Assembly (NCBI GenBank): GCA_019059635.1
Contig: JAGVRJ010000001.1
Span: 248,001 to 312,000 of the forward strand
Direction: 5' to 3'
DNA: 64,000 nt
Source of the DNA: Proales similis
Lineage: Eukaryota; Rotifera; Eurotatoria; Ploima; Proalidae
Positions 21,225 through 53,922 of the stretch are shown in pieces; the first letter of the stretch is position 1, and every line of letters begins with the position of its first letter. The notes under the pieces are model-generated. The model searched no databases, was not told the DNA's origin, and saw nothing but the letters and a program-made list of their open reading frames with translations. The position numbers and the translations under genes are program-made.

Positions 21225-22446
21225 ATGTTCTCATCTCTTTCATTGGTCTTGTTCTCTTTGCTCGCATTTGGTAAGTGGCCAACTCGGCTCATACTCGATC
21301 TGATCGTGACTGTTGATTGCAGGCCGCTGCACTGGGGCCGTTCGAGTCGAGATTCGAATCGATCGAGTGCCGGACTATTACACGCCACTGGACGAGGCCG
21401 TGTTCATGGCCGGCACGTTCAATTCGTGGCGAGCCGATGATCCGAATTTTCAATTCAAACTCAATCTAAACGGAACCGGTGCATTGAGCATTGATTTGGC
21501 GCCGGGCAATTACGAGTTCAAGTTCACTCGTGGATCGTGGCAGAGCACAGAGACGCAGGCGGACGGAGGCCAGCTCTCCAATCGAAAGCTTGCCATCACC
21601 GCTCAAACCGGACCGTTGTGCTTCTCGATTCAAAACTGGCAGGACATGAATGGCGTTCACACTGCGTCTGGTTTTGTGCGCATTTTGTCGCAGCGCTTTG
21701 CCTACCCGCAGTTCAATCGAACCAAACGCGTGCTGGTCTACTTGCCGCCGGATTACTTTGCGCAGAGCGAGAAGCGCTATCCGGTCTTTTACATGCACGA
21801 CGGCCAGAACGTGTTGGACACGTATTTCGCCTTTGGCGAAGAGTGGGCAGTGGACGAAAGTCTGGAGAGATTTCACAGCCGCTCGTTGCCAGTTCCGATT
21901 GTGGTCGCCATCGAGACTAAAGGAATCGGCCTGAGCGGCGAGAGACTGGACGAGCTCACGCCATTTAAACATGCGCAGTTCGGCGGTGGCAGCGGCGAGC
22001 TCTACCTCGATTTCATAGTCAACGAGCTCAAGCCATTTGTGGACACGACATTCCGCACTCGGCCGGAGCGCGCCTCGACCGGCATCATGGGCAGCTCGCT
22101 GGGTGGCCTCATGTCTCTGTACGCGGGCCTCACTCGTCAGCAAGTGTTTGGAATCATCGGCTCCTTTTCTCCTTCGTTGTGGTTCAGTGAGCAGATCTAC
22201 GATCTGGCTCTCAACGTCACTTGTCTCTATCCGACCGAGACGCGGCTCTACTTTGTCGCCGGTCGAAACGAAAGGCCTTTCACTGTGCCCGACATGGAGC
22301 GAATGGTCAAAATTCTGGCTCAGCGAGGCTTCAGCAACATAAGATCGCGCGCGTCCCAAGACGGCCAACACCGCGAGTGGTTCTGGCGACGCGAGTTTCC
22401 GGACGCTTTTCAGCACCTGTTCTCGCTCTTCTTCCCCGTCAACTGA
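21225..22446 (+). CDS. Secreted Fes/esterase-D-like alpha/beta hydrolase
   Basis: Two exons, 21225-21270 and 21323-22446; 389 residues. Exon 1 encodes a signal peptide (MFSSLSLVLFSLLAF), so the enzyme is secreted or vesicular. Residues about 22-105 look like a CBM48/CBM20-type beta-sandwich (EAVFMAGTFNSW, GNYEFKFTRGSW). The rest is an esterase-D/enterochelin-esterase domain: YLPPDYF, YPVFYMHDGQNV, GEEWAVDESLERF, nucleophile Ser274 in GSSLGG, FSPSLWF, and His365 in QDGQHREWFWR. Overall it resembles bacterial carbohydrate-ester or siderophore-ester hydrolases. The substrate cannot be inferred. The 52-bp intron and signal peptide make it a proper eukaryotic gene, not contamination. A bacterial origin by transfer is possible but not shown. 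Confidence 0.88.
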
Positions 22447-50634: not shown

Positions 50635-52896
50635 ATGGATGACTGGCTTCTAGAACACATTGACGACTTTTTAAAGAGATTAGAAGATCTGCGTCAGAAT
50701 GACGAACATGTGCCTTTTTACCCTTACTGGGCTTTTGAGCATTTTGACAAGGAAGGTGACAAGAGTGAAACAAAATTCTATTGGACGCTGATCGAGAACT
50801 TAGTTGAAATGAAGCCCGAAGAGAGGAGAAAGTGCTACGTTTTTGCCGGACTCGATGGAATATTCAATTGGGGCCAAGAAAACCTAGCGAGCAAATTTCG
50901 TGTATGTGACGTGTGCATTATTCAAGGTGAACAAATGTACTTGATCGAGGTAAAAAAGCAAAAAATCAAAGGCGCCGAAAAGCAGCTTACGAGTACGTTC
51001 GCCTCACTCGGGCATCTGGCCTCTTTCAAGTCTTACGTCTCAGTGGATGCCAAACAAGAGAGAATAGGGAGCAGCCGTAGACTCGGCTCTGTGGAGGAGC
51101 TTTTACAGGAAAAATGTCAACACGTCCCTATAACCACGGCGAACATAAAGAAGCAGATGGATGATATGATCGAAAAGCTGCCCAGCTTGAGCAGTACCAG
51201 CATAAGCAAGGTGTTCGGACATGCATTGGTTAGCAAGATGAGAGAAAAAGTCGGCTCACTGGGCAGTGCCCAAGACTCTGAGCTGAGATGGATGCTGAGA
51301 GAAAAGTTAGATGAAAAAGACATTTTGATCACCAACGCTGACATGATCAAGAGCATCTTGCGCAAGTTTTTGCAATTTTTTTACAAACAAGATGAAAGCT
51401 TGTCGAGAGCAATCGAAGAAAAGAGGCCCGTCGCTGAAATATTCGATCTTGCCTTCGATCAGCTTCTAACAAAACGGGCTTCACTGTTCGCAGGCCGCTT
51501 TCTCAAACGCTTGCGCCAAGTACAAAACTACCCGCAGCCCCTGAGAGTGCTAATAAGCGGTCCAGCCGGCTGCGGAAAGTCCTATATTCTTCAATATTTA
51601 TTTAGGACGTTTATTCAGCAGCCAGCCAGAGTGAGCTTTCACAACAACAACGAAAAGTACCTTATACTGATCTGCGGCACTGAGTTTTTCCTCCGGAAAA
51701 TTGACGAGCAGCATCAGACAAGCGAGAAGGTGCTCTATTTGTGGCATAAGGGAAAAAAGTCAATTAGAGAAAAGCTGAGGCGAGCCGAGACGGAGCAGAA
51801 ACAGTTTCTGGTGATAAAAGCTGATTCAAAGCAGCCGTTTCAAATTCTGTCCGAGATCGTAGAAGAGAGTTCGCTAAACAAACGACTAATTGCTGTTCTA
51901 TACGACGACATGATGATTAATTTATATCAGTACATGCGACATGGCCCTCTGGACAATTTTCACTTTGGATCGCTGAACAAATTCATCGAATCGAAATTGA
52001 GATACTTTATCGCCACGATCGACATTGACCAGTTTTACTGCGTGAACAATGGCCCACAATTAGGGGAGCAGCAAATAATTCCCGGGTTAGATTTGCGCCT
52101 ACAAGTCTACCAGCTGAGCCAGAGCTGGCGCTATTCCAAACGCGTATATGATTTGATTCACCTCTACCATAGCTGGTTGAGTTCAAACAGAATTCACTCG
52201 GTCTACAGAGCGATTGAGTTCTCATGCTTTAACTGCTTGGACATGCAAGCCAAATTGAAGTGTGGAGAAAGCTCGCAGGACAAGACGCTCGTTGCTCCCA
52301 TCAAGGACTTTTTTCAACTTTGCAAGAGCCTTGGAATTCAAGCCTTGGACTCCATCAACTTGAACGATTCATTCAATGAGCTTTGGTCAAGGCTGTTTGT
52401 CAATCGGGCAATCAGATTTGGATTGTCGCACCTCTACCAGAACTATTCGGATGGCCAAGTCCAAATTAGATCGTACGAATCAGATGAAGATTTGCGCGAA
52501 ATTTTAAGAGAAATAAAGAGAGACGTTGCAGATTTGCACGTGATTGTGAACGGTAATCGCAATCTACTAGCTGACGATGGAATGCATAAATGTTTAAGAG
52601 ACATTCTGTGCAATACGCTCGAGGCCGAGCAATTCAGCCATCTGTACACGTTTGAAAAGGGCGACAAGCATGAAAAGGCCAAATGCCGAAGGTTATACTC
52701 GAGTGAATATGCAACATTGGTTTGTGTCTTTCCGACAAGAATCCAGCTCAATTCGACAAATCGCAACGAGCATTGGCGATTCGAGCCCTATTTCATGCTG
52801 TCCAGAGCAACAGTGAACCTCAAGATTGTTTACAAATCATGCGGCAAGTGCGACTGCAAAAAGGATAAGTGGGAGCAATGGCTACCCGTGCGTTGA
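50635..52896 (+). CDS. NERD-like nuclease fused to SF1 helicase-like ATPase
   Basis: Intronless open frame of 753 residues; an in-frame stop at 50626 fixes the ATG. N-terminal part (about 40-130): a PD-(D/E)xK/NERD-like pattern with Glu45 (SETKFYWTLIENL), Asp92 (RVCDVCII) and E105-V-K107 (MYLIEVKKQ). A helical middle (150-290) follows. The P-loop part has Walker A GPAGCGKS at 309-316, a Walker B-like LIAVLYDDMM (Asp424-Asp425, where SF1 helicases have Asp-Glu), a motif III-like FIATIDIDQFY at 458-467, a motif IV-like LSQSWRYSKRVYDLI at 494-508 with Arg499, and a motif VI-like YFMLSRATVNLKIVY at 719-733 with Arg724. The end is Cys-rich (CGKCDC). This order resembles prokaryotic NERD-UvrD fusions and, more loosely, Schlafen C-terminal helicases. 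No metazoan family is recognised. Codons look more A/T-ending than in the neighbouring genes (by eye). The function is unknown: nucleic-acid defence or a domesticated mobile-element gene are guesses. Confidence 0.75.
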   Translation: MDDWLLEHIDDFLKRLEDLRQNDEHVPFYPYWAFEHFDKEGDKSETKFYWTLIENLVEMKPEERRKCYVFAGLDGIFNWGQENLASKFRVCDVCIIQGEQMYLIEVKKQKIKGAEKQLTSTFASLGHLASFKSYVSVDAKQERIGSSRRLGSVEELLQEKCQHVPITTANIKKQMDDMIEKLPSLSSTSISKVFGHALVSKMREKVGSLGSAQDSELRWMLREKLDEKDILITNADMIKSILRKFLQFFYKQDESLSRAIEEKRPVAEIFDLAFDQLLTKRASLFAGRFLKRLRQVQNYPQPLRVLISGPAGCGKSYILQYLFRTFIQQPARVSFHNNNEKYLILICGTEFFLRKIDEQHQTSEKVLYLWHKGKKSIREKLRRAETEQKQFLVIKADSKQPFQILSEIVEESSLNKRLIAVLYDDMMINLYQYMRHGPLDNFHFGSLNKFIESKLRYFIATIDIDQFYCVNNGPQLGEQQIIPGLDLRLQVYQLSQSWRYSKRVYDLIHLYHSWLSSNRIHSVYRAIEFSCFNCLDMQAKLKCGESSQDKTLVAPIKDFFQLCKSLGIQALDSINLNDSFNELWSRLFVNRAIRFGLSHLYQNYSDGQVQIRSYESDEDLREILREIKRDVADLHVIVNGNRNLLADDGMHKCLRDILCNTLEAEQFSHLYTFEKGDKHEKAKCRRLYSSEYATLVCVFPTRIQLNSTNRNEHWRFEPYFMLSRATVNLKIVYKSCGKCDCKKDKWEQWLPVR

Positions 52897-52927
52897 ATAG
52901 AATCCAGAAATGGTGCGATTCTATTCA
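52894..52927 (+). other. Perfect 11-bp hairpin on the stop codon of the nuclease-ATPase gene
   Basis: TGAATAGAATC, a 12-nt loop, then GATTCTATTCA. The first arm contains the TGA stop. It could form an mRNA stem-loop or mark the edge of an inserted unit. Confidence 0.7.
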
Positions 52928-53922
52928 GCGTTCAGTGATTTAGCTTGTGTAGACTAAAATCTGTCGATTGTGCTAGTTGCAGAATCAAAAGTAAATAGAT
53001 TAGCTCAAATTGTTCTCTAAGATGGCCCTGCCAGCTCTCAGCTAACTCTCTTCCCCGAGCCATTTTAATTGGTGCAATTAGCTCATTTAATTCAAAGTCT
53101 AAGGCTGGATCAGCAATCCAGGTTGGAAATAAAATCGATTGTTTGAGTCTTGTGGGCGGCTAGATTGTGGATTAGGGCATCTTTCATGCAAATAAATTTT
53201 ATTGGAAAAAAGCCTGAAACGGACGCTGAATCGAATTAAAATACGAAGAGCACGACCAGAAGGGTACAACCAGAAGGGAGAACAAGAGTCAGACAAGCAA
53301 AGATTAAAGCAATAAACTGCAATCTAAAGACGCTTAATAAAAACCGGTTTGGCCAATCTGAAGCCCGTTCAACCTTGATCTCACATAAATAAGTTTACGA
53401 TCACAAGGGTGTCAGTGAACGCTTATCGCTCTGTGTTTGTTGAATCGCTAGTTAGATATGATAAAATCGATGTCGAGGATAGGGAGAAAGAGAGAGAGAG
53501 AGAGGGAGGGAGAGGGAGACGAGGGAATAGGAGAATGGGTTTATAAAACCTGCTTTCCCAATTCATTTTCTCATTTCATTTGGACCCGTCAGACGATATG
53601 GGACGCCGCTCGGCCTATTATACAGATTAGAGTTCAAGCGAGCGGTGCTTGCTCAAATGAACGAGCCTAGCTGGCTAATGACGATCAAAGGTGGTGGCAA
53701 TCGACCGACGAGCAGAATGTTGCAGCCGATTTACATCAAATTGCGTCGTCGAGTCGAGTTAGCCAATGTCCGCTAATGCACGTTAATAAGTCCGATAAGA
53801 ACGTTGATCGCGTTTATGACCACACACAGCTAATCGCCACTTGGCCACAATTTAAAAGCCTCTCCTCGCGACCGACTCGTTTTCTTTATTGTCGTTGTTG
53901 TCGTTAGAACTGACCGAACAAG
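52928..53922. other. Intergenic region before the ZIP gene
   Basis: About 1 kb without coding likeness. It has several AATAAA-like hexamers (for example near 53190 and 53312) and a GA tract at about 53484-53520. Confidence 0.45.

Follow-up and report, generated by a model that had tools for sequence, protein, structure and literature searches.

A long open reading frame in the rotifer Proales similis raises the question of whether an animal gene can encode a nuclease-helicase fusion of the type found in bacteria as NERD-UvrD proteins. The frame lies at 50635-52896 of a stretch of 64,000 nucleotides, here called the window (contig C1, 248001-312000; the genome comprises 32.7 Mb in 15 contigs). 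An earlier note on this DNA described the product as a NERD-like nuclease plus a UvrD/SF1-like ATPase, which is the best-supported reading of the protein sequence. A predicted P-loop domain is present, and statistics from shuffled sequences show that the C-terminal motifs IV-VI resemble the NERD-UvrD family beyond chance, although the overall likeness is barely detectable and the searches turned up no near homologue. The putative motor part has moderate support and the candidate nuclease region is weakly shown (p 0.01-0.02), with the family membership, origin and role of the protein unproven. With somewhat better than even confidence, the gene is judged to be a very divergent nuclease-helicase fusion that would work like bacterial NERD-UvrD proteins, and a long-resident gene of its host.

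The features of the gene are as follows.

50635-52896, plus strand: open reading frame from ATG to stop, 753 residues plus stop, uninterrupted; an intact reading frame
50752-51069, plus strand: putative PD-(D/E)xK/NERD-like nuclease region, residues 40-145, with E45, D92, E105 and K107; boundaries inferred
51070-51522, plus strand: mostly helical region without a match, residues 146-296 (middle slice, 239 of 2000 shuffles)
51523-52074, plus strand: putative RecA-like domain 1, residues 297-480, with the P-loop, a Ia-like motif at 342-353 and a III-like D465-Q466
51559-51582, plus strand: Walker A/motif I GPAGCGKS, residues 309-316, from Pfam P-loop matches and the sequence
52075-52893, plus strand: putative RecA-like domain 2, residues 481-753, with a IV-like R499, the stretch 606-632, a V-like K675-G676 and a VI-like motif at 718-733

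Resemblance to the bacterial NERD-UvrD family

The residues named in the earlier note are present: E45, D92 and E105-V-K107 form a putative catalytic set E, D, E-x-K in NERD order and line up with invariant residues of the family, and the Walker A sequence is there as well. The III-, IV- and VI-like motifs (D465-Q466, R499 and Y719/R724-A725) do follow the P-loop in helicase order, as does K675-G676. The proposed Walker B is less secure, in that a DD pair exists at residues 424-425 but the register of motif II varies between alignments, the family DEGQD falling at about residue 397 in alignment A1 and at about 429 in A3.

The bacterial family was assembled from Bacillota, in which PF08378 (NERD) matches occur in 149 of 299 genomes. 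Sixteen listed NERD loci with frames of 507-768 residues were read, and the 14 with a P-loop were kept (L140 and L150, which lack it, were left out); alignments A1 and A2 consist of 12 of these 14. A profile of 12 of the 14 loci drew 1784 proteins, the best 120 of which were used. The resulting 134-row profile combines the 14 loci with the 120 proteins, two sets that are not fully distinct (locus L138 encodes P0001), and hhalign retained 108 of the 134 rows after its own filter. Alignment A3 holds 58 of the 120 proteins at less than 60% mutual identity, and in it the rotifer protein is 16-21% identical to the family. For seven proteins and three loci, with P0001 and L138 counted separately, the best PADLOC model is RTasNERD-Hel in nine cases and NERD+UvrD (C3a187) in the tenth, and Pfam finds NERD in three of three family members and UvrD_C_2 in two of three. 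Longer Bacillota NERD proteins (12 loci, frames of 774-826 residues) were also tried; HMMER found no match with them, and the single hhalign match was misplaced. These loci truncate the proteins to 635-684 residues, 11 of the 12 without a P-loop, and are uninformative on the helicase.

With the 134-row profile, HMMER yields three local matches that keep to the family order: residues 301-335 over the P-loop, 606-632, and 712-735 over motif VI. The hhalign matches at 291-356 (probability 57%), 67-112 on the nuclease signature (0.6%) and 714-735 (0.3%) are likewise in order. Each slice of the profile was then tested on its matching segment, with 2000 shuffled versions of that segment as control. 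None of the shuffles scores as well for motifs IV-VI or for motif VI, 3 do for IV-V and 8 for everything after the P-loop, which supports the helicase half of the earlier claim as a resemblance by profile. The nuclease half is weakly supported, with 17 shuffles as good for the NERD slice and 20 for the NERD core; motifs Ia-III (173) are not significant. When the full protein is shuffled around a fixed P-loop, the counts are again 0 for IV-VI and for VI, and 39 for NERD. Two other tests are negative or weak: a home-made local alignment (12, 46 and 81 of 200 shuffles) and automatically picked blocks, which give 13 of 1000 shuffles for the C part and 825 of 1000 for an N part without the catalytic block.

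Natural sequences were scored as well. Among 411 frames of the same genome (the protein and 410 others of at least 100 residues), the protein ranks first for motif VI and for the whole profile, second for IV-VI and for everything after the P-loop, and tenth for NERD. Of 87 other Escherichia coli frames, none lies above it on the whole profile or on the VI and IV-VI slices, and one exceeds it on the NERD slice (4.3 versus 2.4 bits). Among the E. coli helicases, Rep, UvrD and RecD stand above it on the motif VI slice (11-13 bits) and RecB below (1.1).

In the proposed mechanism, an N-terminal PD-(D/E)xK-type nuclease would hold E45, D92, E105 and K107 at its metal site, and a helical linker would join it to a C-terminal SF1A-type motor driven by ATP. 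The motor may load on single-stranded nucleic acid, travel by ATP hydrolysis and position the strand for the nuclease, possibly in nucleic-acid defence or repair. We infer this coupling and the biological role by analogy with the bacterial relatives.

Curated models, structure models and rival explanations

Several results weigh against a NERD-UvrD relationship. Neither NERD (PF08378) nor UvrD (PF00580, PF13361, PF13538) appears among the Pfam results up to E 10, whether the query is the whole protein, residues 1-150 or residues 281-753; HMMER filters drop most matches above E of about 0.1, which limits these negatives. PF08378 also matches nowhere in the genome at E 0.001. The whole profile is equalled by 147 of 2000 shuffles when the P-loop is fixed. 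Additionally, a fourth hhalign match, at 578-606 (0.2%), is out of family order, which slightly reduces the confidence in a NERD-UvrD-like fusion and slightly raises that in a STAND- or AAA+-type ATPase.

That explanation, a STAND- or AAA+-type P-loop ATPase fused to an unrelated N-terminal domain, with chance or convergent motifs and a role in ATP-driven switching in place of translocation, is the strongest of the rivals, if an unlikely one. The best Pfam matches, AAA_16 (2.3e-5), AAA_23, ATPase_2 and NPHP3_N, all fall on the P-loop and remain below the curated cut-offs. A double-Asp Walker B, as at 424-425, is common in STAND proteins. The MAFFT-aligned invariant residues look striking, yet shuffled proteins match as many, and they are not used as evidence. 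What speaks against a switch of this type is the order of the HMMER local matches, together with the VI and IV-VI slices, which beat every shuffle and nearly every natural frame.

The remaining matches are mostly to the P-loop. Those from NCBIfam and PHROGs are mainly weak ones there (best 0.007 and 0.026, respectively), PADLOC mad8 matches the P-loop, and the best match in the Protein Data Bank by sequence is also there (E 0.068; other queries 1.2 and 0.1). Within residues 1-150, Pfam gives weak matches to Pellino_RING (0.0012) and Vta1 (0.026), and a PHROG for a Holliday junction resolvase matches weakly at 90-119 (E 0.27). Queried alone, residues 1-150 match PADLOC PDC-M29B, a candidate profile, over residues 69-139 (E 4.1e-6). 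Searches with PDC-M29B across 18 genomes (E 0.001) and across 398 (E 1e-6) bring no match, no control genome matching either, and it is not named in the literature searched. No relative turns up in the protein collection, where 7997 candidates were scored with a limit of E 0.01 and, for residues 40-460, 5605 with a limit of E 10.

The earlier note had raised a divergent Schlafen-like factor that might cut tRNA. Such a protein, with a helicase domain of group 3 (DUF2075), is very improbable. The SLFN-g3 helicase profile does lie over the P-loop (E 0.12), but it scores 12.1 bits where the cut-off is 24, and it matches nothing in the genome at E 0.001; Pfam finds no Schlafen core in the whole protein or its parts. 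A DUF2075/Schlafen-type helicase profile, shallow at 12 proteins only, gives some signal after the P-loop (24 of 2000 shuffles) but none for IV-VI (989 of 2000), and the resemblance therefore leans to the UvrD side, as far as so shallow a profile can tell. With these 12 proteins, HMMER matches at the P-loop only, and hhalign adds a weak out-of-place match. Nine of the 12 outscore the rotifer protein on the whole NERD-UvrD profile; none does so for VI or IV-VI.

AlphaFold2 on the protein alone is unusable, with a predicted local distance difference test score (pLDDT) of 37.2. Fed with the bacterial family, which makes the result partly circular, it gives an SF1-like helicase fold. The pLDDT of this model is 72-85 over residues 41-70 and 76-84 over 91-110, both in the putative nuclease region, and mostly low over 168-273. 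SLFN11 heads the Foldseek list for this family-assisted model, of which the comparison covers mainly residues 271-751, but the SLFN alignments begin at about SLFN residue 399, past the N-terminal core.

Domestication of a virus or mobile-element gene, the latter also suggested previously, is improbable and finds no support. An odd single gene without detectable relatives would suit it, but the gene has one copy, unique flanks and, nearby, only inverted pairs that are short or of simple repeats. No relative of the protein is confirmed in viral contigs or in prokaryote genome contigs, and plasmids and phages each give six records, all weak (best E of 0.8 for plasmids and 0.1 for phages).

Genomic setting, introns and codon use

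The copy-number check proposed in the earlier note finds one copy: genome searches with the whole protein and two of its parts return no second, the sole other match being at E 0.48 on contig C14 (query residues 31-150). The 5 kb surroundings of the gene match only themselves. At both ends of contig C1 lie repeats of mixed CCTAAA/CCCTAAA and TTTAGG type, and a bacterial contaminant is unlikely because these repeats are telomere-like. The contig ends are a mix of TTTAGG, TTTAGGG and TTTTAGG units, with no one clean repeat. The genome gives no candidate for the arthropod cuticle family PF00379, in a search in which no control matched either, and no exact match to the nematode spliced leader SL1. 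Neighbouring open reading frames in the window are animal-like, encoding a proprotein convertase, a PDZ-guanylate kinase protein, an FHA-DIL-PDZ protein and an Snf7 protein. Amid such animal-type genes, a putative esterase (PF00756; 377 residues, Pfam E 1.3e-27) occupies a single frame at 21313-22446; this family is commonest in microbes.

Over 300 base shuffles of the region, the longest open frame is 230 residues, versus 755 at the gene. The reading frame of the gene stays open for 13 codons past the stop. A hairpin at 52891-52930 has two 14-nt arms (93% complementary) and a 12-nt loop, with the stop codon inside the first arm; folded as RNA, 52880-52945 has a z of -4.1, and 1 of 200 shuffles is equally stable.

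Neither the lack of introns nor the codon use is unusual for this genome, and they give no evidence for transfer. The genome was sampled in 20 stretches, of which 19 are readable (190 kb) and one is only N; stretches that read only N are C9:700001-710000 and C10:1-1500. Stop-to-stop frames of at least 750 residues number 3 in the window and 4 in the sample, non-overlapping ones of at least 300 residues number 9 and 28, and further open reading frames of the window also carry whole domains within one frame. A 753-residue frame without an intron, presented earlier as an oddity, is thus unremarkable. The codons do differ from those of eight open reading frames in the GC-rich window, with a G+C content at third codon positions (GC3) of 0.547 versus 0.61-0.81, but of 52 frames of 200 residues or more in the sample, 37% lie lower in GC3 and 27% in codon score. 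Recent transfer has no support; the gene may stem from an ancient transfer or belong to an old eukaryotic family.

Comparison with known systems

A broader proposal, that an animal lineage retains a single-copy, long-assimilated and functional nuclease-helicase of anti-phage type below the reach of curated models, others perhaps having been overlooked elsewhere among animals, is tentative and on balance doubtful. If real, it would bring into animal biology a candidate nuclease-helicase of the bacterial defence type, and would mean that such a gene can drift beyond domain libraries yet keep its motif order. It would also offer a test case of how enzymes of nucleic-acid defence or repair persist in an animal whose genome is small. 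No mention of an animal NERD-UvrD protein was found in the titles and abstract openings of the literature searched, mostly from non-subscription journals.

Eukaryotic Dna2 joins a PD-(D/E)xK nuclease and an SF1 helicase in one chain. A separate Dna2-family match above the cut-off lies on the same contig (C1:3351562-3352195), and the gene is therefore unlikely to be a displaced Dna2. This match is in two parts with about 65 bases between them, which may be a short intron; the smaller part crosses one TAA. With Schlafen group 3 (SLFN11/SLFN14), the protein may share an SF1-type C-terminal helicase fold, as seen in the family-assisted model, whereas the DUF2075 IV-VI profile finds no signal in it.

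Nhi-like anti-phage systems are described as a nuclease and a helicase in one protein (PMC12904381), and a review table gives NERD for them (PMC10952713). The rotifer protein would resemble them in this single-protein arrangement, although its PADLOC matches do not include the Nhi model. The closest comparison is with bacterial NERD-UvrD proteins (RTasNERD-Hel, C3a187; NERD PF08378, often with UvrD_C_2). The rotifer protein differs from these in its longer unmatched middle, its unclear motif II, the silence of the curated models and its length (753 residues versus 556-633 in the 120 listed relatives), whereas the E, D, E-x-K set is common to both, and the order of nuclease, P-loop and III-, IV-, V- and VI-like motifs is the same.
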